Origin: Bifidobacterium sp. ESL0704
GTDB lineage: Bacteria > Actinomycetota > Actinomycetes > Actinomycetales > Bifidobacteriaceae
Direction: 5' to 3'
Assembly: GCF_029392075.1 (NCBI RefSeq)
Contig: NZ_CP113929.1
Span: forward strand, 558,001 to 622,000
Length of the DNA: 64,000 bases
In this document: in pieces, positions 6,544-54,725 of the stretch
Position numbering within the stretch: the first letter of the stretch is position 1
How the letters are laid out: each line of letters starts with the position of its first letter
Position numbers and translations under genes: made by a program
The notes under the pieces: generated by a model
The model's input: only the letters and a program-made list of their open reading frames with translations
Told to the model about the DNA's origin: nothing
The model's database searches: none

Positions 6544-6594
6544 AACCTTTTCCAATAGCTATCAACAATGGTCTGTTTAACGAAGGAGTTCTTC

Positions 6595-8806: not shown

Positions 8807-8868
8807 GCTCTGGCCCGCAATCGGGAGCAAGACGATAGGTGAAGCGCAATATGGTCGGAAGGAATGAT

Positions 8869-10437
8869 ATGGATACCATTAAGCTTGATGCCGCTGATAA
8901 GGTCGTGGTGGCCAGCCGGGATTTTCATAAGGGTGACAAGGTAAGCGTGGAGGGTCTCGAAGCCCCCATTGCCTTGCTCGAGGATGTTCCGCGCGGCCAT
9001 AAGATAGCGATCCAAGACATCGCCGCCGGTGAGCAGATCATCAAATACGGCTATTCGATCGGGCACGCCAAAGAGGCCATCCCGGCCGGTTCCTGGGTTC
9101 ATACCCACAATTGCAAATCGAACCTCGGGCCGGATCTGGCCTATGAGTATCATCCCGTCCCCGGCGTGGTGAAACCCGGAATCGATGCCGTTGACGGCAT
9201 TTCCGAGAAAACCTTCAAGGGATACCGCCGTTCGACCGGGCGCATCGGCATCAGGAACGATCTCTACATCGTCCCGACCGTAGGCTGTATCAACTCGCTG
9301 TGCGACAATATCGCGGCCGATTTCAAGTCGCGCCACCCCGGCAACGGTTCGTTCGATTCCGTCGTCATCGCACACCATCCCTACGGCTGCTCGCAGCTGG
9401 GTGGTGACCATGAGATGACCAAGCGCCTGCTGCAGGATATCGCCGCGCACCCCAATGCCGGCGGCGTCCTGGTGGTCGGTCTGGGTTGCGAGAACAACCA
9501 GATCGACGAGTTCCAGGCAGGGCTGAGCTGCTGCGGCACCGATTCGGGCAATCCGCAGGAAGCCATCGACGACATCCGCGAGGGGCTGGTCTACGACCCG
9601 AAGCGCGTGAAATTCATGGTCTGCCAGACCGTCGATGACGAGTATGAGGCCGCCCGCGGTCTTCTGGATGAGCTCAACGAGGCCGCCAAGGACGATCGCC
9701 GCGAGGACATCCCGCTCAACGAACTCACCGTGGGCGTCAAATGCGGCGGGTCCGACGGGCTTTCCGGTGTTACGGCCAATCCTCTGGTGGGCCGCTTCGC
9801 CGAGTTCCTGGTTCGTCAGGGCGGCAAGGTGGTGCTCACCGAGGTCCCCGAGATGTTCGGCGCCGAGCAGGTGCTGATGAGCCATGCCAAGGACGAGGCG
9901 ACGTTCGACGACGTCGTAGCCCTCATCAAGAACTTCAAGGATTATTTCCGCCGTTACCATCAGCCCATCGGCGAGAACCCCTCTCCCGGCAACAAGAAGG
10001 GCGGCATCACCACCCTCGAGGACAAATCGCTGGGTTGCATCCGCAAGGGCGGCAAATGCCAGGTCGTGGATGTCATCGACTACGGCAGGTTGGCGACAAA
10101 GCCTGGATTGACGTTGCTGCGCTCTCCCGGCAATGATCTGGTCTCTTCCTCGGCGCTGGCGTCTGCCGGTTGCAACATCGTGCTGTTCACCACCGGTCGC
10201 GGCAACCCGTTCGGCACCTATGTGCCGACCTTCAAAGTGGCGACCAACGATCCGCTCGCCGAAAAGCATGGCCGTTGGATCGACTTCAACGCCGGACGGC
10301 TCTTGAGCGAGCCGATGGATGACGTGTTGCCTGATTTCATCGATGCCGTGCTGAAGGCGGTCAATGGCGAGCAGACACGTAACGAACAGTACGGAATGCA
10401 TGAAATTGCGATCTTCAAGGATGGTATTACCGAGTAA
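8869..10437 (+). CDS. uxaA: Altronate dehydratase
   Basis: A 522-residue enzyme that dehydrates D-altronate to 2-keto-3-deoxygluconate and normally depends on Fe(II). The first 90 residues form a small SAF domain ending near SWVHTHNCKSNLG. The large catalytic domain then carries cysteine-bearing segments such as VPTVGCINSLCDNI, HPYGCSQLGGD, GLGCENNQID and VGVKCGGSDGLSG, as in UxaA/GarD dehydratases. The ATG at 8869 has a GGAAGGA ribosome site five bases upstream and is preferred over the GTG at 8839. It completes the altronate steps with uxaB and is the last gene before the LacI regulator. Confidence 0.93.
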   Translation: MDTIKLDAADKVVVASRDFHKGDKVSVEGLEAPIALLEDVPRGHKIAIQDIAAGEQIIKYGYSIGHAKEAIPAGSWVHTHNCKSNLGPDLAYEYHPVPGVVKPGIDAVDGISEKTFKGYRRSTGRIGIRNDLYIVPTVGCINSLCDNIAADFKSRHPGNGSFDSVVIAHHPYGCSQLGGDHEMTKRLLQDIAAHPNAGGVLVVGLGCENNQIDEFQAGLSCCGTDSGNPQEAIDDIREGLVYDPKRVKFMVCQTVDDEYEAARGLLDELNEAAKDDRREDIPLNELTVGVKCGGSDGLSGVTANPLVGRFAEFLVRQGGKVVLTEVPEMFGAEQVLMSHAKDEATFDDVVALIKNFKDYFRRYHQPIGENPSPGNKKGGITTLEDKSLGCIRKGGKCQVVDVIDYGRLATKPGLTLLRSPGNDLVSSSALASAGCNIVLFTTGRGNPFGTYVPTFKVATNDPLAEKHGRWIDFNAGRLLSEPMDDVLPDFIDAVLKAVNGEQTRNEQYGMHEIAIFKDGITE

Positions 10438-10537: not shown

Positions 10538-11575
10538 ATGGACAGTTCGAAGAAGAAAGTCACTATTCGTGATGTTGCACAGTTGGCCGACGTCTCGCCG
10601 TCTACGGTCTCCCGGGCGTTTGCTCGTCCCGATCGGGTGAGCGCCGAGACCACCAAAAAAATTTTCGCCGCTGCCGACAAGCTGGGCTATCATGAGGAAG
10701 CCGTCCAAACGCGGCCTTCCCGTCATCGGCATGATCTGATCGCCATCAGCGTGCCCGATATCGCCAATCAGTTCTTTTCGGATATCATCCGCAGCGTCCA
10801 GCATGAATGCTTCAACCGTGGTGTCGGACTGATCGTTTCCGAAACGCGCGAAAGCGCTTCCTGGGAACGCATGGCATTCGACAAGGTGGTCAAAAACGCC
10901 GACGGCATCATTCTGGTGTCTTCGCGAATGCCCGATTCCATGATTCGCAAGTGTGCGCAAGCCAGGCCGCTGGTGGTGGTCAACCGTGAGGTCCGAGGCG
11001 TCTCCAGCATCGTCGTCGATGTGCGGCAGGGGGTCCATCAGGCCGTCGAACAATTGCAGATAGGCAATTGCCATGACATTACCTATCTTGACGGACCGGC
11101 CAACTCATGGTCGGTGGGCATGCGTTGGAAGGCCATACGCGGCGAATGCCATAGCCGCAACATCGACGTGCACCGCATGTGGCCCGGAGTCCCCACGTTC
11201 GAGGGCGGCTATGCCTGTGTGGAGCAGTATCTGCAGCATCCCACCGGCGCCGTGATCGCGCATAACGATCTGATGGCGATAGGGTTCATCGCCGGCATGC
11301 GCAAACGCGGCTACGAATGCCCCCGCGATTTCTCGATCATCGGTTTCGATGACGACACGGTCGGACGGATGAGCGACCCCTCGATTTCCAGTATCCATAT
11401 GTCGTTGCCCAAGGTCGGCAATTATGCCGAACACCTGTTGGCCGCCAGCGTCGAGGGCACGGTCAAGCCAGGGCAGCTGGCACGTATTCCTTCTTCGCTG
11501 ATCGTGCGCGAAAGCACGAGAACGCGAGGCATCGCACCGAAGTCCCTTGCCTGCGCAAACCGTGGCAACAATTAG
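10538..11575 (+). CDS. LacI-family regulator of the galacturonate genes (inferred)
   Basis: A complete 345-residue LacI/GalR protein. The helix-turn-helix is at the N-terminus (VTIRDVAQLADVSPSTVSRAF) with the usual hinge, then a sugar-binding core ending in DFSIIGFDDDTVGRMSDPSISS. It sits between uxaA and uxaC on the same strand, so it most likely responds to a uronate or a catabolic intermediate and controls this island, possibly including itself. A GGGGGA ribosome site precedes the ATG. Only position supports the ligand assignment. KdgR and UxuR-like roles are the obvious alternatives. Confidence 0.85.
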   Translation: MDSSKKKVTIRDVAQLADVSPSTVSRAFARPDRVSAETTKKIFAAADKLGYHEEAVQTRPSRHRHDLIAISVPDIANQFFSDIIRSVQHECFNRGVGLIVSETRESASWERMAFDKVVKNADGIILVSSRMPDSMIRKCAQARPLVVVNREVRGVSSIVVDVRQGVHQAVEQLQIGNCHDITYLDGPANSWSVGMRWKAIRGECHSRNIDVHRMWPGVPTFEGGYACVEQYLQHPTGAVIAHNDLMAIGFIAGMRKRGYECPRDFSIIGFDDDTVGRMSDPSISSIHMSLPKVGNYAEHLLAASVEGTVKPGQLARIPSSLIVRESTRTRGIAPKSLACANRGNN

Positions 11576-11674
11576 CGGTTACGAATTTGGGCAACCATAT
11601 GATGAAGCCGTCTAGTCTAATACCCATTCGGCCGGCAATGTGGCCAATGCTTGTTTGCGAAGGAAAGAAAGAAT

Positions 11675-13093
11675 ATGGAATTTCTCGATGATGATTATCT
11701 ATTGACCACTGATCTGGCGCAGGAGCTGTTTCACGGCTGTGCGCAGGATCTGCCGGTGGTCGATTACCATTGCCATCTTCATCCTCAGGAGATTTATCAG
11801 GACACCAACTTCAAGGATATCGTCGATGCCTGGCTGACCGACGGCAAGAATTACGGTGACCATTACAAGTGGCGTCTGATGCGTGCCAACGGTGTGCCCG
11901 AAAGGCTCATCACCGGAGATGCCACACCTTGGCAGAAGTTCCAGGCTTTTGCCTCGACAATGGAAAAGGCCGTCGGAAGCCCCGTGTTCCTTTGGGCGCA
12001 TATGGAGTTGCGCCGGTATTTCGGCATCTCGACCGTGCTGAGCACCAGGACCGCGCGCGACATCTTCGAGCAGACCAACGAAATGCTCAGGCAGCCTGAT
12101 TTCTCGCGCCGTTCCCTGCTCCGCCGGATGGGTGTGGATACGGTCTGCACCACCGATGATCCGGTTGAAGACCTTCAATACCATAAGCTTTTCGCCAAGC
12201 AAGACGAGACATTCAAGATGATTCCGGCCTTCCGCCCCGATCCGGCGCTCAAGCCCGATCAGCCCGGTTTCGGCGCATGGGTCGAGCAGTTGGAGCAGGC
12301 CAGCGGCGTCTCCATCCGTTCCTTCGACGATTTGGTTTCCGCTTTGTCCAAGCGCGTCGATTACTTCCATGACCTCGGCTGCCGTCTTTCCGACCATGCC
12401 GCGGGCATCATGACCTATGACGTGGCTACGAGCTCGCAGCTCGACGCGATTCTCGACAAGGCCAGGGCCGGCAAGGGCGTCACGGCGCTCGAATACTCGC
12501 AGTATCGCACCGCCCTTTTCATCGCCTTGATGAGCATGTACAACGCCAAGGGCTGGACCATGCAGCTGCATCTGCATTCCTTCCTCAACCTCAACAAGCG
12601 CGGCTTCGCCGATCACGGCCCGGACACCGGCTTCGACGCCATGAACGACCGTTCCATCGCCGAGCCTCTCGCGGCCCTGCTCAACGCGGCTTCGGAGCAA
12701 GGCGGCATCCCCAGGCTTCTGATCTATTCGCTCAACCCCAACGACTACATGGTCATCTCCACGGTCGCCGGATGCTTCCAAGGCGGCATGAAGCAGCGTC
12801 TGGCACTGGGCAATGCGTGGTGGTTCAACGACACGCGCAACGGCATACGTCGTCAGCTCGAAGTGATGGCCGAGACGTCTTTGCTGGGCAATTTCGTGGG
12901 TATGACCACCGATTCCCGCAGCTTCCTTTCGTTCTCACGTCATGAGTATTTCCGCCGGATTCTCTGCGAGATGCTCGGCGAGTGGGCCAATCGCGGCGAG
13001 ATTCCTGCCGATCCGGAGTTCCTGGAGCCCATTGTGCGTGATATTTCGTTCAACAACGCCAAGGAATTGTTCACCGACCAAAAGAACGACTGA
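11675..13093 (+). CDS. uxaC: Glucuronate/galacturonate isomerase
   Basis: A 472-residue amidohydrolase-superfamily isomerase that converts D-galacturonate to D-tagaturonate (and D-glucuronate to D-fructuronate). The metal-ligand motif DYHCHLHPQEIY lies close to the N-terminus, as in all UxaC proteins, followed by ATPWQKFQAFASTM and the C-terminal SRSFLSFSRHEYFRR segment that is strongly conserved. The ATG at 11675 has an AAGGAAAG ribosome site; the upstream TTG is not needed. With no uxuA or uxuB in the window, the galacturonate direction is the more likely use. It starts a second group of genes after the regulator. Confidence 0.94.
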   Translation: MEFLDDDYLLTTDLAQELFHGCAQDLPVVDYHCHLHPQEIYQDTNFKDIVDAWLTDGKNYGDHYKWRLMRANGVPERLITGDATPWQKFQAFASTMEKAVGSPVFLWAHMELRRYFGISTVLSTRTARDIFEQTNEMLRQPDFSRRSLLRRMGVDTVCTTDDPVEDLQYHKLFAKQDETFKMIPAFRPDPALKPDQPGFGAWVEQLEQASGVSIRSFDDLVSALSKRVDYFHDLGCRLSDHAAGIMTYDVATSSQLDAILDKARAGKGVTALEYSQYRTALFIALMSMYNAKGWTMQLHLHSFLNLNKRGFADHGPDTGFDAMNDRSIAEPLAALLNAASEQGGIPRLLIYSLNPNDYMVISTVAGCFQGGMKQRLALGNAWWFNDTRNGIRRQLEVMAETSLLGNFVGMTTDSRSFLSFSRHEYFRRILCEMLGEWANRGEIPADPEFLEPIVRDISFNNAKELFTDQKND

Positions 13094-13130: not shown

Positions 13131-14675
13131 ATGCGTAATCCTGTGCTGCGCGGGTTCAACCCGGATCCTGTCATCTTCAGTGATGGACAACGGTACTATA
13201 TTGTGGTTTCCACCTTTGAATGGCTGCCGGGATTACGCGTCTATGCTTCCGATGACCTGTGCGATTGGCGCTACGAGACCTCCATCCTGAGCCGTGACAC
13301 CGGTGTCGATCTGCGTGGCAACCCGAGGGGCTGCTCCATCTGGGCCCCGTATGCCGGCTATCACGATGGCGTCTATTACGTCCTTTACACCAACGTGCGG
13401 CAGACCAAAGTGCCGTACAAGGACGTCGATAACTACCTCATCATGTCCAAGGACATCCATGGTCCATGGAGCGAGCCGGTGTATATCAACAGTTCCGGAT
13501 TCGACCCGTCCCTGTTCTTCGATGACGACGGCACCTGTTATTTCATCAATGAAATCTGGGATTACCGCAGGCGTGAGCACAACAAGTCCGCAGGTATCGT
13601 GATGCAGCGTCTCGATGTGGATACGCTCGATTTGTGCGATGAACCGATACGTATTTTCGAGGGGACCGAAGCGCAAAAAACGGAAGCGCCGCAGATGTAC
13701 AAGCATGATGGCTACTACTATCTGCTCACAGCGGAAGGCGGGACCGAGGCCGGTCACCGAGAGACGGTCGCCCGCAGCCGCAAGATATGGGGGCCCTATA
13801 AGCCCGATCCGCAGGGACCGCTGGTGACGTCTTACGATGATCCGCAGTGGCCGTTGCAGTGTGCCGGGCATGCGAGTCTGGTGATGAGCGGAGACGGGCA
13901 ATGGTGTATGGCACATCTGTGCGCGCGTCCGTTCGGCCCTGACGGCGCCTCGATACTGGGGCGTGAAACGGCTTTGCAACAGGTGGTCTTCAGTGATGAA
14001 GGTTGGATTCGCTTGGCACAGGGCGGCCATAAGCCGGCAGTCGTTGTGTGCCCACAGGTCGGGAGCAAACCCAATGCCGCCTCGTTCCATGACGATTTGA
14101 AGCAAGGACTGCCCGATGACGAGCATTGGAACACGCTGAGGGAGTTTTCCGAGGATTCGTGGTTGAAGCCCACCCCCGAAGGGTTGCGCATCGCCGGAGG
14201 CGCATCGCCGCAGTCGACGTTCGGGCAGCACCTGATCGGCACCCGGCAGACCGAGTTCGATTGCCGGGCCTCGGTCCATATGTTCTATGCTCCGAAGAGC
14301 TATCTGCAGCTCGCCGGATTGTCGCTGTACCTCGATATCGACAACTATATGCTGTGCATGGTCACCGCTGATGATTGCGGGGAACCTGTCGCCGTGCTCC
14401 AGCAGTGCGTGGCCGGAGATTTCAGCGAGATATGCCGGATACCTGTTTCCGGCCGTTGCTTTGATATCAGCGTGAACCTGTCGGGTCATGACTGCGTTTT
14501 CAGCATGACCGACGTGTCCGGCATGGTCTGCGATTTCGAAGGCCCCCACGACGTCACCTTCCTCGCCGGCGGGTTCACCGGCGATTTCATTGCCTTGGAT
14601 GCCATCGATATGTATCGTCATAATTCATCTGCTGCGCTATTCAGCGATTTCCGTTATGAAGTCCTTTCGAACTGA
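13131..14675 (+). CDS. GH43 beta-xylosidase / arabinofuranosidase-like enzyme
   Basis: A 514-residue glycoside hydrolase family 43 protein. The five-blade propeller starts at once with NPVLRGFNPDP, placing the catalytic base at Asp12. The transition-state-stabilising Asp is Asp125 in FDPSLFFDDDGT, and the general acid is Glu185 in KTEAPQMY. The positions and the roughly 200-residue C-terminal beta-sandwich match subfamily 11 intracellular beta-xylosidases. There is no signal peptide, so it acts in the cytosol on imported oligosaccharides. In this setting the substrate may be xylosyl or arabinosyl side groups of pectin such as xylogalacturonan. That is inference; simple xylo-oligosaccharides are the alternative. 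Confidence 0.85.
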   Translation: MRNPVLRGFNPDPVIFSDGQRYYIVVSTFEWLPGLRVYASDDLCDWRYETSILSRDTGVDLRGNPRGCSIWAPYAGYHDGVYYVLYTNVRQTKVPYKDVDNYLIMSKDIHGPWSEPVYINSSGFDPSLFFDDDGTCYFINEIWDYRRREHNKSAGIVMQRLDVDTLDLCDEPIRIFEGTEAQKTEAPQMYKHDGYYYLLTAEGGTEAGHRETVARSRKIWGPYKPDPQGPLVTSYDDPQWPLQCAGHASLVMSGDGQWCMAHLCARPFGPDGASILGRETALQQVVFSDEGWIRLAQGGHKPAVVVCPQVGSKPNAASFHDDLKQGLPDDEHWNTLREFSEDSWLKPTPEGLRIAGGASPQSTFGQHLIGTRQTEFDCRASVHMFYAPKSYLQLAGLSLYLDIDNYMLCMVTADDCGEPVAVLQQCVAGDFSEICRIPVSGRCFDISVNLSGHDCVFSMTDVSGMVCDFEGPHDVTFLAGGFTGDFIALDAIDMYRHNSSAALFSDFRYEVLSN

Positions 14676-14930
14676 GTCTTTTTAAGTTAATCGAATATAC
14701 TAAGCAAACGCTGGCAACAGATGTCAGTGTAATCAAAATCACATTCGATACTGTACATGAAGGGAATTTGCATACAGGTTTCTTTGAATTGAACAGTGCG
14801 GGCCCGATCAACGTTGTATGTCCGTGCTTTCGGTTCTGAGAAGACGGGATTATGGAGTGTCGTTGCTGACACTCAATGATTTGCAATGGTGTTGCGAATT
14901 CCGCTCTTCAGAAGAAAGGTGCAACTCATC

Positions 14931-16322
14931 ATGAAGTTTTCCAAATCGATTATCGCAGCGGTGGCATCGGTCGCCATGCTGGCTTCTTTGGGTGCCTGCG
15001 GTTCCGGCTCCCAATCTTCTTCCTCGTCATCCAAGAAGGACGGGGCAAGCATTTCCATGAATGATGTCAATGCCGCGCTGAAAAGCGACAAGGACGTGAA
15101 ACTCAATTTCTGGACCTGGCGTGATGATATCGAGGGGCCAAGCATCGCTGCGTTTGAAGCGAAGTACCCGCATATCAAGATCAACGTGGTCAAGACCGGC
15201 GCTGCCGCCGATCACTATACGAAGTTCCAGAATGTGCTGAAGTCCAAGAAGGACATTCCGGATATCGTTCAGCTCGAATATGATTACCTGCCCCAGTATG
15301 CCGTCAGCGGCTCGCTGCTCAATTTCTCTTCGCCCAGCATCGAATCCTCGATGGGCAAGCTGTACAACGACGCCTCGTGGCGTAACGTCCATGTGGCCGA
15401 CGGGCTGTACGGTGTTCCGCTGGATCAGGGGCCCGAGGCCTTCTTCTGGCGTCACGACGTGCTTGACCAGTACGGTATCCAGATTCCCAAGACCTGGAAG
15501 GAGTTCGAGGAGTCCGGCATCAAGCTGCACAAGGCGAACCCCAATAAGTACATGGGCTTCATCGATACGACCGATGTGCGCTATATGGCTTCGATCATCC
15601 GTCAGTCCGGTGCCATTCCCTGGCAGGTCGACGGCGTGCAGAACGTCAAGCTGAGCATGACCGACGCCAAAGTGAAGGAAGCGGTCAACTTCATTCAGCG
15701 GCTTATCGACGAGGACGTTTTGGAGCCGGTCGCCAACAAGAGCGATGAATACAACCGTGGATTCGCCGAAGGCCGTTGGGCCGTGCAGTTCGACGGATGC
15801 TGGAAGGGCACTTCGTTCACTCAGCAGCAGCCTTCGCTCAAAGGCAAGATGGAGGTCGCGCTTCCTCCGGCCTGGGGCGATGACGCCAGCAACCTGAAGA
15901 CCGGCGAGGTCGGTGGCTCGTTGATTTCCGTGACTTCCGCCACCGCTCAGGAGAAGCGTGCCGCCGCCATCGCGTTCTGCAACTGGATGAGCTCCAGCAA
16001 GGAATCCATCAATGAATTCCAGAAGACCGGAAGCTTCTTCAACGCCGCCAAGTCCTTCCAGGAGGATCCGAAGCAGGCTTCGGTCAAGAACGATTACTTC
16101 GGCGGCCAGCAGGTCAACAAGGTCTACTTCGAGTCCGCGAAGAAGCTGAGCTCCGGCTGGACGGTGCTGCCTTTCAACTCGCAGTATGCCACGAGCTTCA
16201 AGGACATCGTGGTTCCCGCGTTGAAGAAGAACGGCAACCTCTTCGGCAAGTTCGCTCCTTGGCAGGCAAACCTCAAGCAGTACGCCGAGGACCAGGGCTT
16301 CAAGATTACGGAATCCAAGTAA
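14931..16322 (+). CDS. ABC transporter sugar-binding lipoprotein
   Basis: A 463-residue solute-binding protein of the carbohydrate family 1 type. The signal peptide ends in a lipobox (LASLGAC) with the lipidated Cys about 22 residues from the start, followed by a serine-rich linker. The mature domain has the usual LNFWTWRDD and GPSIAAFEAKYP start and a late tryptophan-containing region. It delivers a sugar to the two permeases downstream and is anchored on the outer face of the membrane. The ATG at 14931 is chosen because it begins the signal peptide and follows an AGAAAGG site. The 255-base gap before it probably holds the promoter of the transport genes. Ligand inferred from context: oligogalacturonides or related pectin fragments. 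Confidence 0.9.
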   Translation: MKFSKSIIAAVASVAMLASLGACGSGSQSSSSSSKKDGASISMNDVNAALKSDKDVKLNFWTWRDDIEGPSIAAFEAKYPHIKINVVKTGAAADHYTKFQNVLKSKKDIPDIVQLEYDYLPQYAVSGSLLNFSSPSIESSMGKLYNDASWRNVHVADGLYGVPLDQGPEAFFWRHDVLDQYGIQIPKTWKEFEESGIKLHKANPNKYMGFIDTTDVRYMASIIRQSGAIPWQVDGVQNVKLSMTDAKVKEAVNFIQRLIDEDVLEPVANKSDEYNRGFAEGRWAVQFDGCWKGTSFTQQQPSLKGKMEVALPPAWGDDASNLKTGEVGGSLISVTSATAQEKRAAAIAFCNWMSSSKESINEFQKTGSFFNAAKSFQEDPKQASVKNDYFGGQQVNKVYFESAKKLSSGWTVLPFNSQYATSFKDIVVPALKKNGNLFGKFAPWQANLKQYAEDQGFKITESK

Positions 16323-16406
16323 TCAAGCCGGTTATGTCGAGTGTGCCGGACAGCTGTTCCGGCACACTCGGTGCAAATGTGTTGATGTGAAATAAAGGAG
16401 AGTCCA

Positions 16407-17354
16407 ATGATGAATACTGCTGCAGTGCCCGCATCAGTACCGGGTGGCAAAACCCGACCCGGGAAAGCGGAGCAAGGCTTGAGAAAGGAGAAACGGCATT
16501 ATATCGGCATGTTGTATTGCTTGCCGTATGTCGTGGTGTTCCTGGCGGGTACCATCCTGCCGATGTTTTATGCCCTCTATCTTGGCTTTTTCAAGACGCA
16601 GCTAATCGGAGGTGAGACGTTCGCCGGTTTCTCCCAATACATCAAGGCGTTCAAGGACCCTCTGTTGTGGAACGGCTTCGGGCGTGTGACACTCTACGCG
16701 GTGATTCAGGTTCCCATCATGCTGATACTGTCGCTGATGGAAGCGCTGATGCTGGATTCGCAGCGTATCACCCATGTTGCGGTGCCACGAATTCTGCTGT
16801 TCCTGCCGTATGCCGTCCCCGGTGTCATCGCCTCACTGATGTGGGGCTATATCTACGGCGGCGATTATGGCCTGTTCGGCCAGGTCTTCAAGGCATTCGG
16901 GGCCACGCCTCCGGATATGTTCTCGCAAAAGCTGATGCTGATCGCGATGATGAACATCGGTACATGGATCTACATGGGCTACAACATGTTGATCTTCTAT
17001 TCGGCACTTCGTGCGTTGCCTGAGGAATTGTATGAATCCGGCAGGGTAGACGGGGCTTCGGAGTTCAGGATCGCATGGTCCATCAAAATCCCGCAGATCA
17101 AGGGTTCTGTCATCATGACGCTGTTGTTCTCCGTCATCGGTTCGTATCAGCTGTTCAATGAGCCGAGCATGTTGCAGGTGCTCGCCCCGCAGACCGTCAC
17201 CAGTTACTACACCCCCAATCTTTACACCTACAGCCTGGCGTTCAACGGACAAGACGTGAATTACGCCGCTGCGGTGTCGTTGGTTGTAGGCCTGTTCACC
17301 ATGATTATCGTCACGATTGTGAAACTGCTCGGCAATCGCTGGGAGGAGAAGTAA
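16407..17354 (+). CDS. ABC sugar transporter permease, MalF type
   Basis: A 315-residue inner-membrane permease with about six transmembrane helices. After a short basic cytoplasmic N-terminus the first helix is MLYCLPYVVVFLAGTILPMF. The cytoplasmic EAA loop, where the ATPase docks, is seen around YESGRVDGASEFRIAWSIKI. A clear AAAGGAG ribosome site precedes the ATG. It forms a pair with the next permease and takes substrate from the lipoprotein just upstream. No ATP-binding subunit is encoded nearby, so a shared MsmK/MalK-type ATPase elsewhere in the genome must power it. Confidence 0.9.
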   Translation: MMNTAAVPASVPGGKTRPGKAEQGLRKEKRHYIGMLYCLPYVVVFLAGTILPMFYALYLGFFKTQLIGGETFAGFSQYIKAFKDPLLWNGFGRVTLYAVIQVPIMLILSLMEALMLDSQRITHVAVPRILLFLPYAVPGVIASLMWGYIYGGDYGLFGQVFKAFGATPPDMFSQKLMLIAMMNIGTWIYMGYNMLIFYSALRALPEELYESGRVDGASEFRIAWSIKIPQIKGSVIMTLLFSVIGSYQLFNEPSMLQVLAPQTVTSYYTPNLYTYSLAFNGQDVNYAAAVSLVVGLFTMIIVTIVKLLGNRWEEK

Positions 17355-17356
17355 AT

Positions 17357-18337
17357 ATGAGTATGGCACAAGCTTCCGGCCGCGTTGCTGCCCGCAAGGA
17401 GAAAAAGAAGGAATCGCTTGCGAAGAAGGATTGGAAGGTCCGTCAGAGCAAGCAGCACAACAAAGGCGTCAAGGTCACCTTGACCGGCAAGCAGAAGGTC
17501 TTGAACATCCTGCTTCATCTGGTCATGCTGATCATGGTGCTCTACTGCGTCATTCCGTTGATCTGGTTGCTGCTCTCCGCCACCAAGACCAATGAGGGGC
17601 TTTATAACTCGCCCGGCCTGTGGTTCGCCAAGGACAACGTGTTCTTCCAGAACATCAAGGATACCTTCCAGTTCCAGGACGGCATCTACCCGCGCTGGCT
17701 GTTCAACACGCTGTTCTACGCCATCGTCGCCGGTGTCGGCTCCTCCATCTTTGCGACCTTCGCCGGATACGCGATCGCCACGATGAAGTTCCCCGGCCGC
17801 GGGGCGTTGCTGTGGATCACCTTGATCTTCATGTCGATCCCGACCACCGTCATCACCGTCCCGCTCTTCCTGATGTATTCGAAGATAGGGTTCATCAACA
17901 ACCCTTGGTCGGTTATCGTGCCGCAGCTTTCCAGTCCGTTCGGTCTCTATCTGATGATCATCTACTGTCAGAGCTCCATACCGATATCGTTGGTCGAGGC
18001 GGCGAAACTCGATGGGGCGAATACCTGGAGGATCTTCTGGAAGATCGCGTTCCCGCTGGTGTCTCCCGGATTCGTCACCGTGCTGCTCTTCGCGCTCGTC
18101 GGCGTCTGGAACAATTACTTCCTCCCGCTGATTATGTTGCAGGACACCAGGGATTACCCGCTGACGGTCGGCCTCAATGTCTGGATGAAGATGGGAGGCG
18201 ACGCAACGTTGCATTCGGTGCCCAACAACCTGATTCTTACCGGGTCGTTCATAGCCATTATCCCGTTGATCATCGCGTTCCTCTTCCTGCAGAAATATTG
18301 GCAGTCTGGCCTCACCGCCGGTTCTGTCAAGCAATAA
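17357..18337 (+). CDS. ABC sugar transporter permease, MalG type
   Basis: A 326-residue second permease, two bases after the first, so the two are almost certainly translated from one message. A highly basic N-terminal stretch of about 45 residues (lysine-rich) precedes the first helix, ILLHLVMLIMVLYCVIPLIW. The EAA loop is EAAKLDGANTWRIFWKIAFP, a textbook MalG-type sequence. It carries six predicted helices. Together with the lipoprotein and the MalF-type partner it makes a carbohydrate importer of the CUT1 class, the class used for oligosaccharides. A long hairpin follows the stop codon. Confidence 0.91.
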   Translation: MSMAQASGRVAARKEKKKESLAKKDWKVRQSKQHNKGVKVTLTGKQKVLNILLHLVMLIMVLYCVIPLIWLLLSATKTNEGLYNSPGLWFAKDNVFFQNIKDTFQFQDGIYPRWLFNTLFYAIVAGVGSSIFATFAGYAIATMKFPGRGALLWITLIFMSIPTTVITVPLFLMYSKIGFINNPWSVIVPQLSSPFGLYLMIIYCQSSIPISLVEAAKLDGANTWRIFWKIAFPLVSPGFVTVLLFALVGVWNNYFLPLIMLQDTRDYPLTVGLNVWMKMGGDATLHSVPNNLILTGSFIAIIPLIIAFLFLQKYWQSGLTAGSVKQ

Positions 18338-18345
18338 CAAATCCG

Positions 18346-18401
18346 CTGCACCGCGAGGTGATGTCGAAGATGGACTCTCCTGACATCACCTCGGGGTGCA
18401 G
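18346..18401 (+). terminator. Long hairpin after the ABC permease genes
   Basis: Two 20-base arms (18346-18365 and 18382-18401) pair with a single mismatch around a 16-base loop, nine bases after the permease stop. Only a short T run follows, so it may act as a factor-independent terminator or as a message stabiliser that separates importer expression from the pectinase gene downstream. Confidence 0.7.
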
Positions 18402-18433
18402 TTTCCACTATTAAGCATGGTGTAATGCAATGT

Positions 18434-18520
18434 GTGGTATCGGCATTAACCAGGAAGGAGCATGTTCGGCGCTGCGGCGCCTCCATTGAATTCTGATATA
18501 CGGCGATCGGGCGATACCAC
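18434..18520 (+). promoter_or_regulatory. Upstream region of the pectinase gene with a 9-bp inverted repeat
   Basis: GTGGTATCG at 18434-18442 is matched exactly in inverted orientation by CGATACCAC at 18512-18520. A further CGATAC occurs at about 18534, and TTGACC and TTGACA hexamers lie between there and the start codon. Widely spaced half-sites like these could bind a regulator and loop the DNA, but no -10 stands out and no protein is linked to the site. Confidence 0.3.
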
Positions 18521-18575
18521 TGTGGGTGTTGACCGATACGGCTGTTGACAGTTACAAAGAGAAAGTATATGGAAA

Positions 18576-21500
18576 GTGAATTCTAGAATATCTTCTGTTT
18601 TGGCTGTTTGTGCTTCTGCGGCAACGGTGCTGACAATGGCGCTTACCGTTCCTTCTTCTGCGCAGGCATCCGATTTCAATATTGCGGCACCCTCGGGGCT
18701 GGCGATGGCACCGGCATCCAATACCGATACCTCCGTCGTGCTCACATGGGAAAAGCCGGAGCATTATTCGAATATCTCCGGTTACAATGTCTATCTCGGC
18801 GATGCATTGGTAGCAACGACGAGTATGACCTATTACAAGATCACGGGGCTGAGCCCATCGGCGACCTATGATTTCACGGTTAAGGCGGTAGGCGACGACG
18901 GAGGGGTTCTCTCCGCGGCAAGCAACCGTCTTGAAGTGACGACGACGTCTACACCCAAGCGCTATAACGTCAGGGATTACGGGGCTGTGGGCGACGGTAC
19001 GACCAAGGATACCGTCGCGTTGCAGAAGACCATTGACGCCTGCAAGGAAAAGAACTGCGAGGTCTATCTGCCCGCCGGTGTCTATCTCAGCGGCGCGCTT
19101 AACCTGCATAGCGACATGACCTTCTATGTCGATACCAATGCGCAGCTGAAACCAAGCAGCGAGCTCAAAGACTATCCGTTTACCAGCGCCCGTCACGATA
19201 TCGAAGACATCTACGGCAAGAACCCGGCGTATTCGAGCTTGCTCAATGCCGGCACGATGGACAAGTCCAAAGGCGTGACCACCAAGAACATCAAGATCAT
19301 GGGCCCTGGCACCATTGGCGACAGCGACAACGGATTGCTGCTGCGCAAGGCATACGATGATTTCACCAATGAGGGCAATGGTGGCAATCTCGATATTCCG
19401 GGCGACATCTACCAACCCAACCAGCACGTCGGCGGCGGCAGCCTGATCAGCCTGAAGAATTGCGGCAGTGTGTATATGGATTCGTCGCATATCCGCAATG
19501 GCATGATGTGGACCATCGTCCCTGTCTACAGCAAGGACATCACGGTCTACGGGCTTGACATCGTCACTTCGGTACACAACGGCGACGGTTTCGACCCGAA
19601 TTCCTCGTCGAACGTATGGACGCTGGCCACGCAGTTCTCCACCGGTGACGACAACAGCGCCATCAAGTCCGGCAAGGACGCCGAGGGCATCGCCATCAAC
19701 CGTCCTTCCGACCATCTCTATTACCGCGGTGACGTGTTCAATTCCGGCCACGGCGGGGTGACGCTGGGCAGCGAGATGTCCGGTGGCATCAGCGACGTGT
19801 TCGTCGAGGATTCCACATTGGTCCCGGTCGATCTGACCAGCGGGGCTGTGAACCCCGGCATCCGCGTGAAAGTCAGCCCCAAGCGCAGCGCCTACATCCG
19901 CAATATCCAGGTGCGTGACTCCGTGGTCAACAAGATCAGCGTGATCACCAATTACGACAGGACCCCTGCCGCTTCGCTCGATCCCGGCTTGGTGCTTCCC
20001 GACATCGAGAACTTCAGGTTCTCGAACCTCACTGCGCCCAATTGGGACAACAACAACGGCAAAGGCAACACGATTGACATCAGCGGCTCGAATTTCGGTA
20101 GCGGACTGGTGAAGTACCTCAAGAACTTCCAGTTCGACAACTGCAAGTTCCACGCGGCCTTGCTCGACACCACGCAGAACATCGCCTTCCGCAACACCAA
20201 GCTGACCGATGGGCTTTCCGCCACCCGTTCGATTAACGTCACTCAGGACGGTGTGATCGAAAAGGACCATTCCTTCCCGGTCAACGACGATTTCGAGAAT
20301 ACCGAGGTCGGAAAGCTGCCGAAGTATTGGAGCATGCAGAAGTCCGATACCGGTGGCGGTGCAAGTGTCAAAGAGGAACCCGGCAACAAATACCTTGAGC
20401 TCAAGGACAACGGGCCAGGCTACGAAACCGTAGATAGAACGTTCACCGAGCAGAAGGAGAAGGTGCACGCCGAGTTCACCTTCAGACTTCCGGAAATCAG
20501 TCGTATGAACAACAGCGCTCTCATCGATTGGCGAAGTGCCAGCGATGGCAAGAACGTGGCTCGCTTCACCACTTCGGGCGTTGGCGACCAGCTTCTTTTC
20601 GGCAGCCAACCGATACTTACCGGTATTCAGGCCAATCAGTGGCATACGGTCGCGCTCGATGCCAACATTGCCGATAAGAAGATGGATATCACGGTCGACG
20701 GCAGCAAGGTTCTTACCGATCAGGCGTTCAGCCAGTCCAAGGCTTCCGGCATCGGACTGCTTGAGACTCGTATGGCCAACAACAATGCGTCCCTTGCTTC
20801 AATGGATTTCGACAATGTGAAGGTCACTGCCCAAGTCAGTGCTTCCAAGAAACAGGTCACTTCCGTGATACCCAGTGCACCTGCCAATTCCATCACCACC
20901 AAGGGTGGCACATTGCAGTTGAGCGCCGCTGTGGAGGCCAATGATCCTTCTGTCGACAAGTCCGTTGAGTGGACGGTCACCCGTCCCGATATGGGTTCGA
21001 CCGACATTGCGACCATCGACCAGAACGGGTTGCTTACCGCCAAGGCCAATGGCACGGTTCTCGCCGTCGCCACTGCCAAGGACGGTTCCGGCACGCTTGG
21101 CGTGTTCCCGGTGGTCATCACCGGTCAGCAGAGCGTTTCCGGCTTGGTCCCGGTCAGCGTCACCACAACGGTCGGCACCGCTCCCGTGCTTCCCGGCTAC
21201 GTCTATGAGCGCAACAGCGATGGCACCGTCATGCCGGTGGCTGTCTCCTGGGGCAGCGTCAAACAGTCCGATTATGCCAAGGTCGGGCAGTTCACGGTCA
21301 AGGGCACGGTCAAGGACGTCGGTTCCGTGGACGCGACCGTGACGGTCACCGAGGTCGGGGTCAAGTCCCTCGACACGGCAATCGTCAAGACCACCCCCGG
21401 CAAGCTGAAGATGCCGTTGAGCGTCGTGGCCGAGTTCAACGATGGTTCGCGCCAGCGTGTGAGCGTCAAGTGGGACAAGGTTGACGCTTCGAGCTATGCC

Positions 21501-23585
21501 AAGAAGAACCTCAACGGATTTACCGTTTCCGGTACGGTCGATGGACTTTCCCAGAAGGCCAAGGCCGTGGTGATGGTGATCCCTGAAGTCGTCGCCGGAG
21601 TGACGCCGATCGTCGTCTCTGCAGACGGCAACGGCGATTTCCGCACCATGGGTGAGGCGATCGCCTCCATCCCGCAGAACAACAAGCAACGTCGTGTGAT
21701 CTTCGTCAAGCGCGGCACCTACAAGGAGAAGCTGTCGATCGATCGTCCCTACCTGACGGTTGTCGGCGAAAGCCCCGACAGCACGCGCCTGACCTACGAC
21801 GCCAAGCCCAGTGACATAGGCAAGGACGGACAGCCGCTCGGCACCTATCACGATTATTCGGTGAAGATCACAGGCAATGACTTCTCGGCCAAGGACATCA
21901 CCTTCGAGACGACCGCGGGCTCTACCGTGGGCCAGGCTGTGGCGCTTGATGTGCGCGCCGATCACGCCTCGTTCGACAACTGCCATATCCTGGGCTACCA
22001 GGACACCTTGCTGCTACGCAACAAGACCGATGCCAGCGCGACCGACAACGTGCCGGATCAGCCCACGGTGCAGACCTATCGTTCCTACTTCAAGAACTGC
22101 TACATCTCCGGTTCCGTGGATTGGGTGTTCGGTGCGGCTGAGGCGGTGTTCGACAAGTGCACGATGCATGCCATGCTCAACGGTTATGCGACTGCGGCCA
22201 GCACGCCGCAGGAGCAGAAGTACGGCTTCGTGTTCAAGGACAGCGTCGTCACCGGTGAGAATCCCTATAGCGGATCGTTGAACACCTATCTTGGCCGTCC
22301 GTGGCGTCCGTATGCCGCTGTGGCGTACGTCAACACCAAGATGGACAGGAATGTTCCGGCCATCGGTTGGAACAACTGGGGCAAGCCGGCCAACGAATCC
22401 ACAGCGCGTTACTATGAGTGCGGCAGTACGGGCGAAGGCTCCAATCCCGCCGGACGTGCTTCGTGGGCCAAGACCTGCAACGCGAGCGATTTCACCGTGG
22501 AGAAGGTCTTTGCCAAGACCAGCGGCATCAATGCCGCCGACGACTGGGACCCGACCCAACTGGTCAATCCTCCTGCCGAAGACGCCGTCCCCGAGGCCGT
22601 AGATGCCGCTGCCGAAACGATGCAGGGCATCGCCTATACCGGCGACCTCTCCGCGTATGCGCAGGCCGACGGAGTCGATTCCCTGAAGTTCGCCGTGGCG
22701 AGCAGGCCGGCGCACGGTGTGCTGACCTTGCAGGAGAACGGTGCATACAGCTATCTGCCGGATCCGAATTTCGCCGGTACCGACACGTTCACCTTCAAGG
22801 CTCTTAACGGCTCTGCCGCCTCCAACGAGGCCAAGGTCTCCATCACCGTTCATGCGGCCACGCTCGATCTGAATGCGGACCCGGTGAAGACCGTTGAAGG
22901 AAGCAAGCAGGGCGATACCATCTCCGCCACGCTGACACAGGCCGACCTTTCCGGTGTTCGCGACAGCGACGGCAACATCCTCTTCGATCTGGGCGGCATG
23001 AAGGTCAAGATTCCGTTCGTGTTCGCCCGCATGCTTGCCGGTTATGGCAACAGCCTTAAGGTCTCGTCGCTTTCGGTTTCCGACGCCGACCGCAAGGCCG
23101 TCGATAACGCGCTTGGCAAGGGTGCGAAGGTGCTGGCCGAACGCGATCTGAAGGTCGAGATCGTCGATTCCGAAGGTCAAGGCGCTCCGGTGAGCGTGTT
23201 GCCTGGGATGGTTTCCGTCTCGCTGGACTTCCTTACCTCCCGTGATGCGGGTAAGGCCGGACAGGATACGGCGGTCTACCGGTTTGCCAACGGTATGCTT
23301 GCCCGACTTGAAGGTGCCGTCGATATGGCCTCTGGCCGTGCGAACATGCTGACCGATAGGACCGGTATCCTCGTCGCCGATCAATCGCCCAGCGAAAGCG
23401 GCACGCCGGCAAGCAAGCCGGCTGCCGTGTCCAACGCTTCGGCCAATCGCAAACCTCGCACCGGTGCCCGGCTCAGTGCCACCGGCAGCGCGGTGGTTGG
23501 CGTCGTCGTCCTTGCGGTTCTGCTTTCGGCAGCAGGCGTGGCGATGATGGTTGCGACGAGGAGGCGCAATGGCGCGGATCGGTGA
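18576..23585 (+). CDS. Cell-surface bifunctional polygalacturonase (GH28) and pectin methylesterase (CE8)
   Basis: 1669 residues. Order: signal peptide (cut near Ala31), fibronectin III (about 37-125), GH28 beta-helix (about 128-560), a lectin-like sandwich (about 567-749), a Big_2-like and two Big_4-like Ig domains (about 770-1000), CE8 pectinesterase (about 1010-1315), a cadherin-like module (about 1350-1425), and a C-terminal helix with basic tail. GH28 residues are intact: Asp337 (NGDGFD), Asp358 and Asp359 (GDDN), His392 (GHG), and Arg430 with Lys432 (RVK). CE8 residues are also intact: Asp1143 (GYQDTL), Asp1182 (DWVFG) and Arg1241 (GRPW). The end has LSATG before the helix, resembling a sortase LPXTG signal with Ser for Pro. 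It should remove methyl esters from homogalacturonan and cut the product at the cell wall. The GTG start is poorly supported; an ATG seven bases upstream is in another frame. Confidence 0.9.
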   Translation: MNSRISSVLAVCASAATVLTMALTVPSSAQASDFNIAAPSGLAMAPASNTDTSVVLTWEKPEHYSNISGYNVYLGDALVATTSMTYYKITGLSPSATYDFTVKAVGDDGGVLSAASNRLEVTTTSTPKRYNVRDYGAVGDGTTKDTVALQKTIDACKEKNCEVYLPAGVYLSGALNLHSDMTFYVDTNAQLKPSSELKDYPFTSARHDIEDIYGKNPAYSSLLNAGTMDKSKGVTTKNIKIMGPGTIGDSDNGLLLRKAYDDFTNEGNGGNLDIPGDIYQPNQHVGGGSLISLKNCGSVYMDSSHIRNGMMWTIVPVYSKDITVYGLDIVTSVHNGDGFDPNSSSNVWTLATQFSTGDDNSAIKSGKDAEGIAINRPSDHLYYRGDVFNSGHGGVTLGSEMSGGISDVFVEDSTLVPVDLTSGAVNPGIRVKVSPKRSAYIRNIQVRDSVVNKISVITNYDRTPAASLDPGLVLPDIENFRFSNLTAPNWDNNNGKGNTIDISGSNFGSGLVKYLKNFQFDNCKFHAALLDTTQNIAFRNTKLTDGLSATRSINVTQDGVIEKDHSFPVNDDFENTEVGKLPKYWSMQKSDTGGGASVKEEPGNKYLELKDNGPGYETVDRTFTEQKEKVHAEFTFRLPEISRMNNSALIDWRSASDGKNVARFTTSGVGDQLLFGSQPILTGIQANQWHTVALDANIADKKMDITVDGSKVLTDQAFSQSKASGIGLLETRMANNNASLASMDFDNVKVTAQVSASKKQVTSVIPSAPANSITTKGGTLQLSAAVEANDPSVDKSVEWTVTRPDMGSTDIATIDQNGLLTAKANGTVLAVATAKDGSGTLGVFPVVITGQQSVSGLVPVSVTTTVGTAPVLPGYVYERNSDGTVMPVAVSWGSVKQSDYAKVGQFTVKGTVKDVGSVDATVTVTEVGVKSLDTAIVKTTPGKLKMPLSVVAEFNDGSRQRVSVKWDKVDASSYAKKNLNGFTVSGTVDGLSQKAKAVVMVIPEVVAGVTPIVVSADGNGDFRTMGEAIASIPQNNKQRRVIFVKRGTYKEKLSIDRPYLTVVGESPDSTRLTYDAKPSDIGKDGQPLGTYHDYSVKITGNDFSAKDITFETTAGSTVGQAVALDVRADHASFDNCHILGYQDTLLLRNKTDASATDNVPDQPTVQTYRSYFKNCYISGSVDWVFGAAEAVFDKCTMHAMLNGYATAASTPQEQKYGFVFKDSVVTGENPYSGSLNTYLGRPWRPYAAVAYVNTKMDRNVPAIGWNNWGKPANESTARYYECGSTGEGSNPAGRASWAKTCNASDFTVEKVFAKTSGINAADDWDPTQLVNPPAEDAVPEAVDAAAETMQGIAYTGDLSAYAQADGVDSLKFAVASRPAHGVLTLQENGAYSYLPDPNFAGTDTFTFKALNGSAASNEAKVSITVHAATLDLNADPVKTVEGSKQGDTISATLTQADLSGVRDSDGNILFDLGGMKVKIPFVFARMLAGYGNSLKVSSLSVSDADRKAVDNALGKGAKVLAERDLKVEIVDSEGQGAPVSVLPGMVSVSLDFLTSRDAGKAGQDTAVYRFANGMLARLEGAVDMASGRANMLTDRTGILVADQSPSESGTPASKPAAVSNASANRKPRTGARLSATGSAVVGVVVLAVLLSAAGVAMMVATRRRNGADR

Positions 23586-24242: not shown

Positions 24243-25658
24243 ATGGAAAACAATCAAGGTAGTATTCCCATTAATCAAAGAAAGCATGCCTCTACAGGGT
24301 ATGTCATCGCAGTGTGCGTTGCAGCCGCCCTTGGCGGTACGCTGTTCGGCTATGATCAGGGCGTTATTTCCGGCGCGCTGAATTTCTTTAAGATTCATTT
24401 CAATATGTCCAGCGCGGAAGTCGGACTGGTATCCGGCATCCTGGCGATCGGCGCCATGGTCGGCTGTCTGGTGGCAGGCTGGGCCAGCGATGCGATCGGC
24501 CGTAAGAAAGTGATGATTGTCTCGGGTGCGATGTTCGTCATTTCCAGCCTCATCCTGGCTGTTTCCCCGACGGTTCCGATTCTCATCATCGGCCGTATCC
24601 TCTCCGGTTTCGCCATCGGCATGGCGGCGACCGTGGTGCCGTTGTATATCTCCGAGGTGGCGCCGGCCCGTATTCGCGGCACTTTGGTGACCTTCAACCA
24701 GTTCGCTTTCGCCATCGGCATGACCACGGTCTATATCATCAATGCCTTGATCGCCAATCTCAACAGCAAGGAATTCAACGTGAGTATGGGATGGCGTTGG
24801 ATGTTCGCTTCCGGTATCGTGCCGGCGGTCATCTTCTTCGCTTTGGGTTATTTCGTTCCTGAAAGCCCTCGATTCCTCTATCAGAAGGGTCTCAACGACA
24901 AGGCGTTGGCCATTCTTACCCGTCTCAACGGCAAGGACGAGGCCCTGAGCCAGCAAAAGGCCATTACTTCTTCGCTGAGCACCGCCAAGCAGGAGGGTCA
25001 TGTCGGACTGCGCCAGCTTTTCGCCCCGGGTGTGCGTTTCGCTCTGGTCATCGCTCTGGTGGCGGCTGCCTGCCAGCAGTTGACCGGCACCATCGCTGTC
25101 GGCTACTACGCTCCTATTATCTTCCAGAAGACCGGCGTGAGCACGAATGCCTCCTTGGTCGAGACCATCGGCATCGGCATCGTCAAGATCATCTTCGTCG
25201 GCATCTTCATGGTCTACGTCGATCGACTCGGCAGGAAGAGGCTGCTGACCTGGGGCGGCTATGCCATGGCGGTTTCCCTGGTGTTCCTGGCGGTGCTTTT
25301 CTCCACCGGCAAGTCCGATATGCTGATCAACATCCTGATTCTGGTCGGTGTGTTGCTGCACACCGCGTTCTATGAACTGTCTTGGGGCGGCGGCACCTGG
25401 GTTGTCGTCTCGGAGATCTTCCCGACCGAGATTCGCGGCCGTGCCATGTCGCTGTCTTCCACGATGGTCTTCCTGTCCTCCTACTTCGTCTCCCAGCTCT
25501 TCCCGATGATGCTTTCGGGGCTTGGCGGGGTATGGACCTTCCTTATTTTCGCCGTGTTCTGCGTCGCCATGGCGTTGTTCGCTCACTATGCGCTTCCGGA
25601 AACCACTGGCAAGTCGCTTGAGCAGATCGAGCAGGAGATCACTCGCCGTAAGAAGTGA
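24243..25658 (+). CDS. MFS sugar/proton symporter (sugar porter family)
   Basis: A 471-residue transporter with twelve expected transmembrane helices. The family signatures are present: GGTLFGYDQGVISGAL in helix 1, an RK-containing loop after helix 2 (SDAIGRKKVMI), PLYISEVAPARIRG after helix 4, PESPRFL before the central loop, and DRLGRKRLL in the second half. It belongs with XylE, AraE and GalP-type sugar porters, which import monosaccharides with protons. Neighbours suggest a pectin-derived monosaccharide such as galacturonate, arabinose, xylose or galactose; the sequence alone does not choose between them. The ribosome site is weak (AAGAAGAA). Confidence 0.9.
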   Translation: MENNQGSIPINQRKHASTGYVIAVCVAAALGGTLFGYDQGVISGALNFFKIHFNMSSAEVGLVSGILAIGAMVGCLVAGWASDAIGRKKVMIVSGAMFVISSLILAVSPTVPILIIGRILSGFAIGMAATVVPLYISEVAPARIRGTLVTFNQFAFAIGMTTVYIINALIANLNSKEFNVSMGWRWMFASGIVPAVIFFALGYFVPESPRFLYQKGLNDKALAILTRLNGKDEALSQQKAITSSLSTAKQEGHVGLRQLFAPGVRFALVIALVAAACQQLTGTIAVGYYAPIIFQKTGVSTNASLVETIGIGIVKIIFVGIFMVYVDRLGRKRLLTWGGYAMAVSLVFLAVLFSTGKSDMLINILILVGVLLHTAFYELSWGGGTWVVVSEIFPTEIRGRAMSLSSTMVFLSSYFVSQLFPMMLSGLGGVWTFLIFAVFCVAMALFAHYALPETTGKSLEQIEQEITRRKK

Positions 25659-25782
25659 GCGACGTTTCTGATGGTTCGCTGATTGCGGGAGCGGTTTATG
25701 ACTCCGAAGGTCAAGCGGTGTCTGCTGCATCGGAGCCGCTCCCGCAATCGGTTTGATGACAAGAAAGAGGCAAGGAAAGCCT

Positions 25783-26484
25783 ATGCATAGTTGTATAGAT
25801 TGGCCAAAGCGTTATAAAGATCGGCCGTTCGCGGATTACGTTCTTAATTGTTTCGGCGATTCGACGACTTGGGGGGATAACGGGGTCGATGGTGGCTCTA
25901 TGCAAACCTCCTGGCCGAGTTTCCTGGAGAAGAACGGTCTGTTCAAGACCGTCAGGAATTATGGGGTGTGCGGCTCAAGGGTGGCGTTGACCGACGATCG
26001 GGACGACAGTTTCTTCGAGCGGTATCGCGCCATGAAGGACGATGATGTCGATGTCATCACCCTGATGGGCGGTGTCAACGATTTTCAGCATGATGTCCCG
26101 CTCGGCATTCTTGGCGTCCGTGATGAGAGAACATTCTATGGCGCGTTCGACATCGTGCTTTCCGGGATTATCGAGCAGGCACCGGAGGCTTCGGTCGTGG
26201 TGTTCACCCCTACGGCGAATATGTTCCACAATCCTGCCAAGAATTATCCGACGTCCCTGCAGCCGAATGCGCGCGGGCTGCACCAGAAGGATTATGTAGA
26301 GGCCGTCAAGAAGGTATCGGAGCACTATGCGGTCCCTGTGGTCGATCTCTATGCTTCGAGCGGCATGTGTCCTTTCGTCGAGCAGCAGCAGGTGAAGAAC
26401 ATGCCTGACGGATTGCATTATAGCGTGGAAGGCTATGCACGGCTTGCTCGTCGTATCTACGAGGAGCTTCTGCATCTGGCCTGA
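25783..26484 (+). CDS. SGNH/GDSL-family esterase, cytosolic
   Basis: A 233-residue hydrolase. Block I is CFGDSTTWGDN with the nucleophile at Ser27; block II glycine is in NYGVCGSR; block III is LMGGVNDFQ with the oxyanion Asn; block V is MPDGLHYSVEGY with the Asp-His pair. All SGNH elements are intact. There is no signal peptide, so it works inside the cell, most likely removing acetyl or other acyl groups from imported oligosaccharides. Pectin is often O-acetylated, so a pectin-oligomer deacetylase is a fair inference, but the family is broad. The ATG at 25783 has an AAGGAAAG ribosome site, better placed than the starts 27 and 30 bases upstream. Confidence 0.82.
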   Translation: MHSCIDWPKRYKDRPFADYVLNCFGDSTTWGDNGVDGGSMQTSWPSFLEKNGLFKTVRNYGVCGSRVALTDDRDDSFFERYRAMKDDDVDVITLMGGVNDFQHDVPLGILGVRDERTFYGAFDIVLSGIIEQAPEASVVVFTPTANMFHNPAKNYPTSLQPNARGLHQKDYVEAVKKVSEHYAVPVVDLYASSGMCPFVEQQQVKNMPDGLHYSVEGYARLARRIYEELLHLA

Positions 26485-52623: not shown

Positions 52624-52627
52624 TTCC

Positions 52628-53553: not shown

Positions 53554-53657
53554 TGGAAGGCCGCGTGGTTCGCGGGCGGATGTCGGATGAAATCCGGGGG
53601 AACACAGCGGTGAAAACCGTGATATGAAATGTATCGCAACAGTAAAGGTGGGCGAGG

Positions 53658-54629: not shown

Positions 54630-54725
54630 AAATCCTCACGGTAAACGAGACATTTCTGTCAGACTGAGGATATCGCAACCGCAACGGCTGCGATGACAAA
54701 TTTCCGAAAAATCAAAGGAGCAATC

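Follow-up and report, generated by a model that had tools for sequence, protein, structure and literature searches.

The GH28-CE8 gene and its locus

We found, on the plus strand of the window (the whole 64,000-nucleotide stretch analysed), a single gene that joins a GH28 polygalacturonase to a CE8 pectin methylesterase. It lies among genes for galacturonate catabolism and sugar uptake:

5500..6543, plus strand: PfkB sugar kinase, probable KDG kinase (NF040938, 156 bits, below the cut-off of 400)
6568..7296, plus strand: KDPG/KHG aldolase (TIGR01182, 213.6 bits, above the cut-off of 156)
7361..8806, plus strand: tagaturonate reductase, UxaB (NF002969, 535.7 bits, above the cut-off of 359)
8839..10437, plus strand: altronate/galactarate dehydratase family, probable UxaA (TIGR03248, below cut-off)
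10538..11575, plus strand: LacI-family regulator (family search)
11651..13093, plus strand: uronate isomerase, UxaC (NF002794, 569.5 bits, above the cut-off of 387)
13131..14675, plus strand: GH43 with GH43_C2, no evident signal peptide (family search)
14886..18337, plus strand: sugar ABC transporter, solute-binding lipoprotein and two permeases (SBP_bac_1; lipobox by eye)
16407..17354 and 17357..18337, plus strand: the ABC permeases (by eye; neighbours conserved in relatives)
18576..23585, plus strand: GH28-CE8 fusion, whole gene, 1669 aa, GTG start (ORF, Pfam, relatives)
24243..25658, plus strand: MFS sugar porter (family search)
25753..26484, plus strand: SGNH/GDSL hydrolase, possible deacetylase (family search)

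The exact reactions of the kinase and the dehydratase were assigned from context, because both score under their NCBIfam cut-offs. On the 3′ side of the fusion, the MFS porter, the SGNH hydrolase and an aldose epimerase are followed by acetyl-CoA carboxylase and fatty acid synthase genes; the type I fatty acid synthase has 3137 residues (31693-41106). Further along the window, a type II/IV secretion ATPase and a TadE-like gene (51628-55615) form a probable Tad pilus cluster. No PF00295 or PF01095 match other than the fusion was detected in the genome, and the two lyase families searched, PL1 (PF00544) and PL9 (PF22842), had no match there. A second, more distant UxaC-family gene (250 bits) occurs elsewhere in the genome (G000:C1:371123-372418).

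Scanning 18250-18650 for promoters and terminators returned no promoter-like site and one weak terminator-like site on the minus strand. An 11-base inverted repeat was noticed by eye in the gap that separates the second permease gene from the fusion (18355-18392); its arms, 18355-18365 and 18382-18392, enclose a loop of 16, longer than the terminator scan allows. In the intergenic stretches, the search for shared 11-mers and for palindromes that could be LacI operators yielded nothing convincing, and Rfam had no match in 1-32000 at the gathering threshold.

The frame of the fusion is uninterrupted from 18576 to the stop codon at 23583-23585. Its modules, in order, are signal peptide, fn3, GH28, Concanavalin-A-like sandwich, Big_2, two Big_4, CE8, Big_9 and an LSATG-type tail, all on the plus strand:

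18576..18668, plus strand: probable signal peptide (residues 1-31, by eye; mean hydropathy up to 2.09 over 15 residues)
18681..18947, plus strand: fn3 module, residues about 36-124 (PF00041 at 38-110, 3.7e-10)
18948..20240, plus strand: GH28 catalytic beta-helix, residues about 125-555 (Pfam, structure alignment, fold list)
20277..20840, plus strand: Concanavalin-A-like beta-sandwich, residues about 568-755 (predicted structure)
20859..21119, plus strand: Big_2 Ig-like module (PF02368 at 769-840)
21141..21353, plus strand: first Big_4 module (PF07532 at 859-914)
21357..21587, plus strand: second Big_4 module (Pfam counts two Big_4 stretches; limits from alignment)
21603..22511, plus strand: CE8 pectin methylesterase, residues about 1010-1312 (Pfam Pectinesterase at 1012-1309, 2.5e-57)
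22581..22859, plus strand: Big_9 module (PF17963 at 1339-1424)
23451..23582, plus strand: C-terminal sorting-like tail, LSATG, hydrophobic stretch, RRR (by eye, and NCBIfam below cut-off)

An assembly join or frameshift artefact was ruled out by the intact frame, the single-contig genome of 2.42 Mb and the recurrence of the same fusion in relatives. In the first-pass annotation the two enzymes were linked through a sandwich and three Ig-like modules, correctly (sandwich, Big_2, Big_4, Big_4), while the N-terminal fn3 and C-terminal Big_9 were absent from it. The sandwich is a predicted fold with mean pLDDT 89.1 and pTM 0.85. Because the 1200-residue model of the fusion has a pTM of 0.53, it places the two enzymes relative to each other without confidence.

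Catalytic residues and the type of GH28

Pfam lists Pect-lyase at 131-184 (3.8e-11) and GH28 at 290-455 (3.1e-09) within the GH28 region. The latter match, 36.8 bits against a cut-off of 22.9, together with the beta-helix fold places the domain in GH28; the Pectinesterase profile, 194.3 bits against a cut-off of 27 and matched over 2-292 of its 298 positions, places the other in CE8. We take as catalytic in GH28 the aspartates of the NxD and GDD motifs, GHG and RxK, and as the CE8 active site two Gln, two Asp, one Arg and one Trp. These were read off alignments to 2uve, 3jur and 1bhe for GH28 and to 1gq8, 8tne, 1xg2 and 5c1e for CE8, and compared over 26 rows: the fusion itself, that of the same-genus genome G083, and 24 database proteins (P0002-P0021, P0064-P0067; P0002 is nearly a duplicate of G083, and P0001, the fusion itself, was left out). 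Invariant in all 26 are N335 G336 D337, G357 D358 D359, G391 H392 G393 G394 and K432 of GH28, and Q1120, Q1142, D1143, D1182, R1241 and W1243 of CE8. D340 of GH28 is N in two rows and R430 is K in ten, and given the latter, part of the family may differ in substrate binding.

Between the fusion and that of G083, the nearest relative found, dN/dS is 0.064 for GH28, 0.052 for CE8 and 0.138 for the whole gene. These values indicate that both halves are under purifying selection, and a degraded half was ruled out by this comparison of a single genome pair. The earlier claim that both catalytic domains are complete with their residues is thereby upheld, by profile search and alignments and by selection acting on both halves. 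GH28 and CE8 distances correlate at 0.90 (300 pairs from 25 rows, without P0002 because it nearly duplicates G083); we give this no weight, since shared ancestry alone yields it. The trees of the two domains, both unrooted, each cluster the fusion, G083 and P0003-P0009 together, apart from the other rows.

By sequence the GH28 domain is nearest to exo-polygalacturonases (2uve, 143 bits; 3jur, 110 bits), with the endo-enzyme 1bhe at 34 bits. The fold list from the 1200-residue model is headed by 2uvf, 3jur, 2uve and 5olp, the endo-enzymes 1bhe and 7b8b being lower. This resemblance in sequence and fold suggests that the domain is of the exo-polygalacturonase type. The Yersinia enterocolitica exopolygalacturonase (2uve/2uvf) matches along the fn3-like N-terminus as well as GH28, but has 608 residues and matches neither the CE8 nor the Ig part of the fusion.

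It seems quite improbable that this GH28 acts chiefly on xylogalacturonan or rhamnogalacturonan oligomers, with CE8 and the adjoining GH43 as helpers. NCBIfam rhamnogalacturonidase models do match the fusion weakly (63.5 and 61.8 bits, far below their cut-offs), GH43 lies near the fusion in five of seven fusion loci, and the best match of the sandwich lies in BT_1020, presumably a rhamnogalacturonan-II enzyme; however, a higher score goes to the polygalacturonase model PglA (123 bits, though still short of the 600 that this model requires), the nearest solved structures are exo-polygalacturonases, and CE8 and UxaC suit homogalacturonan.

An exo-polygalacturonase would be sensibly paired with a methylesterase, since methyl esters hinder such an enzyme and the esterase would open its way. 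One paper reports that two rumen exo-polygalacturonases failed on 60% methylated citrus pectin, and an exo-enzyme degrading lightly esterified pectin is cited there (PMC10059216). The exo-type resemblance, the galacturonate locus and the standing of the fusion as sole detected GH28 and CE8 were all missed at first pass.

Distribution of the architecture

The long architecture was found in at least 25 cluster representatives (P0001-P0021 and P0064-P0067, P0001 being the fusion itself), a lower bound since about 8000 candidates were scored in each of two protein searches. Caproiciproducens galactitolivorans, Clostridium sp. SHJSY1 and Paenibacillus are represented; for P0018 and P0021 Pfam lists no fn3. 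Seven proteins combine GH28 and CE8 in other builds, five with GH28 first (P0090, P0101, P0102, P0106 and P0112) and two with CE8 first, P0069 and P0078 (Streptomyces). The hydrolase-first order had been called unusual, but it is the order of 30 of the 32 proteins with both Pfam domains among the matches listed, the fusion included, and CE8 comes first in 2. The architecture is common to more than one phylum and not unique in bacteria. On the refuting condition set at first pass, the reading is refuted in part: the architecture recurs in Bacillota, though open-access literature, among the matches listed, gave no published description of a bacterial GH28-CE8 fusion. Scanning named genomes gave six loci, five with both parts and one, in Clostridium muellerianum, with the GH28 part alone. 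Among 396 sampled Actinomycetota genomes, the window's own was the one with the fusion at E <= 1e-60.

Five proteins named ‘pectinesterase family protein’ (P0013, P0015, P0018, P0020 and P0064, from C. galactitolivorans, Clostridium sp. SHJSY1 and Paenibacillus) have the same GH28-Big_4-CE8 order and an fn3-like N-terminus in the alignment; matches covering 31% to 79% of the query show identities of 43% to 58%. Unlike the fusion, P0015 is without the sandwich, and P0018, P0020 and P0064 have, by reading, a dockerin-like stretch in place of the sorting tail. Dockerin-like repeats, again by reading, end the tails of the Paenibacillus-type proteins P0018-P0021, P0064 and P0065, and the cohesin domain PF00963 is listed for some proteins of this type, which suggests that they are attached by other means. 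Big_9 and an xxxTG tail set apart the rows read as bifidobacterial, together with P0010 and P0011. P0013 (locus L015 of C. galactitolivorans) and P0014 bear an extra fn3-GH28 upstream and so have three catalytic domains per chain. In two Paenibacillus loci, more CE8 and GH28 part matches follow the fusion by some kilobases (L016:16330-19722 and L018:17212-19992). The Paenibacillus fusions contrast with a report that Paenibacillus amylolyticus needs no extracellular methylesterase (PMC7267202).

Two published systems can be likened to the fusion. Penicillium oxalicum SX6 has, by the title of the report, a bifunctional pectinase whose methylesterase and polygalacturonase are separate domains (Tu et al. 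2014, cited in PMC4556634), which unlike the present protein is fungal. For Butyrivibrio fibrisolvens, one paper describes large secreted methylesterase proteins of about 2000-2200 residues with binding modules and a second pectin-cutting domain, which is a PL9 pectate lyase and not GH28 (PMC12109409).

Within the genus the fusion is rare, the full form being present in 3 of 112 genomes: the window's own, G083 (87% identity) and G018, B. canis (59%). The G018 copy has one in-frame TAG near the end of its GH28 part (L050:3625), either a mutation or a sequencing error, in a frame otherwise open; the related protein P0008 has no stop at that position. Three other genomes of the 112 (G009, G111 and G051) have GH28 and CE8 in separate genes that lie close together. 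Ten of the 11 frames concerned have no evident signal peptide by eye, some of them with several possible starts; the N-terminus of the eleventh (G009_GH28b) falls outside the stretch. In G003, G044 and G071 (L007, L004 and L005), which had no match to the fusion at 1e-20, open frames 631-849 residues long give CE8-like matches scoring 84.8-91.1 bits.

UxaC (PF02614) is matched in 30 of the 112 genomes, and a high-scoring class (>580 bits) in 14 of these, all three fusion genomes included. G083 keeps the order birA-kdgK-eda-uxaB-uxaA-lacI-uxaC-GH43-SBP-permeases-fusion-accBC, and has between fusion and accBC no matches to the MFS, SGNH and epimerase genes of the window; in G018 the locus genes are present, partly reordered. 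G093 keeps the catabolic genes at the same site, without GH43, ABC transporter or fusion. A long plus-strand frame between its uxaC and epimerase genes (L056:11902-13350) was read as a sugar transporter, as if this pectinase-free genome scavenged free galacturonate. The UxaC of G093 matches the one from Bifidobacterium sp. ESL0763, which is also the nearest named one to the window's own (83%); we take the ESL strains to be bee-gut isolates. Over the seven fusion loci, UxaC lies less than 8 kb from the fusion in five (the window's own, G083, G018, L013 and L015, Caproiciproducens among them), and the two Paenibacillus loci, L016 and L018, had no UxaC match within 8 kb.

Probable secretion, possible anchoring and proposed action on pectin

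The signal peptide, read by eye, suggests that the fusion is probably secreted. Its C-terminus runs from RLSATGS through a hydrophobic stretch to RRR; the motif is non-canonical, not LPxTG, and the NCBIfam LAVTG model gives it 16.7 bits, under the cut-off of 27. These features would fit a tail that is a mere membrane-spanning stretch, or is cut off, leaving the enzyme without sortase-made attachment to the wall, as would two others: the anchor is the fastest-evolving module (dN/dS 0.299 between the fusion and G083; tail 0.262), and LPxTG is found in five of six sorting-like tails seen in stretches around the sortase genes of this genome. We nevertheless consider this unlikely, as all ten of the relatives P0002-P0011 end in xxxTG, a hydrophobic stretch and basic residues, and the genome has eight sortase matches. 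Anchoring through the LSATG-type tail is plausible. Of the cell-surface location first proposed, secretion is thus probable, and anchoring, given the tripartite tail with its non-canonical motif and below-cut-off match, plausible.

We think it likely that the gene makes one secreted bifunctional pectinase, probably attached to the wall, in which CE8 unblocks the substrate and an exo-type GH28 trims it, and that the locus takes up and metabolises the galacturonate. Both activities on one chain are predicted from the intact domains; around these we infer secretion and anchoring, the exo mode, the uptake route and the co-operation of the halves. CE8 would strip methyl esters from homogalacturonan, and GH28 would then trim galacturonate units off the exposed end of the chain. 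As spacers, the sandwich and Ig-like modules would keep both enzymes close enough to act on one chain, the sandwich perhaps being a binding module too. The neighbouring ABC or MFS transporter would import the released galacturonate or short oligomers, and UxaC, UxaB, UxaA, KDG kinase and KDPG aldolase would metabolise them. Together with the exo-type GH28, the adjoining pathway makes this mechanism more specific than that of the first-pass annotation; the substrate channelling and reduced loss to competitors proposed there are possible.

Less probable, though to be taken seriously, is a fusion without functional gain, a domain join kept by descent whose enzymes work independently, like separate secreted ones. 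The separate neighbouring GH28 and CE8 genes of the three same-genus genomes speak for it, as do the sandwich, which evolves faster than the enzymes (dN/dS 0.204), the domain placement lacking confidence in the model, and the GH28 relative of Clostridium muellerianum (58%), with no CE8 match above 60 bits within about 8 kb on either side. On the other hand, the order GH28, Big_2, Big_4, Big_4, CE8 is constant across the aligned Bifidobacterium, Clostridia and Paenibacillus rows, Big_2 and the Big_4 pair are slow between the fusion and G083 (dN/dS 0.054, then 0.061 and 0.129), and GH28+CE8 proteins of other builds exist in both orders. Shared module order, slow spacers and other builds in both orders together argue that the joining has recurred or been kept for long.

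Returning to the bifunctional pectinase, we regard a conserved two-enzyme pectinase in a galacturonate locus as real, probably attached to the surface, and mechanistically sensible. More tentatively, it could be a cell-attached machine in which the esterase deblocks, and a processive exo-polygalacturonase unzips, the same pectin chain. If so, this one protein, with the sole GH28 and CE8 detected in the genome, would allow a Bifidobacterium to use intact, methylated pectin directly as food, in place of scavenging the products of others. Within a single genome, the locus lays out a compact path, open to experiment, by which methylated pectin could reach central metabolism, and the fusion lends itself to testing whether there is a benefit in joining an exo-hydrolase to an esterase. 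Natural comparisons are provided by the relatives with separate enzymes and by the one with catabolic genes at the same site without the fusion.

According to a study of honeybee guts, Gilliamella and Bifidobacterium give most of the pollen-glycan-degrading families, with Apis dorsata an exception in that Dysgonomonas also contributes (PMC12518797). A 2021 review states that no bifidobacterial species was then known to metabolise pectin directly (PMC7889515). A further paper describes pectin islands in a marmoset isolate and cites a pectin-degrading capacity of B. vespertilionis (PMC8406136).
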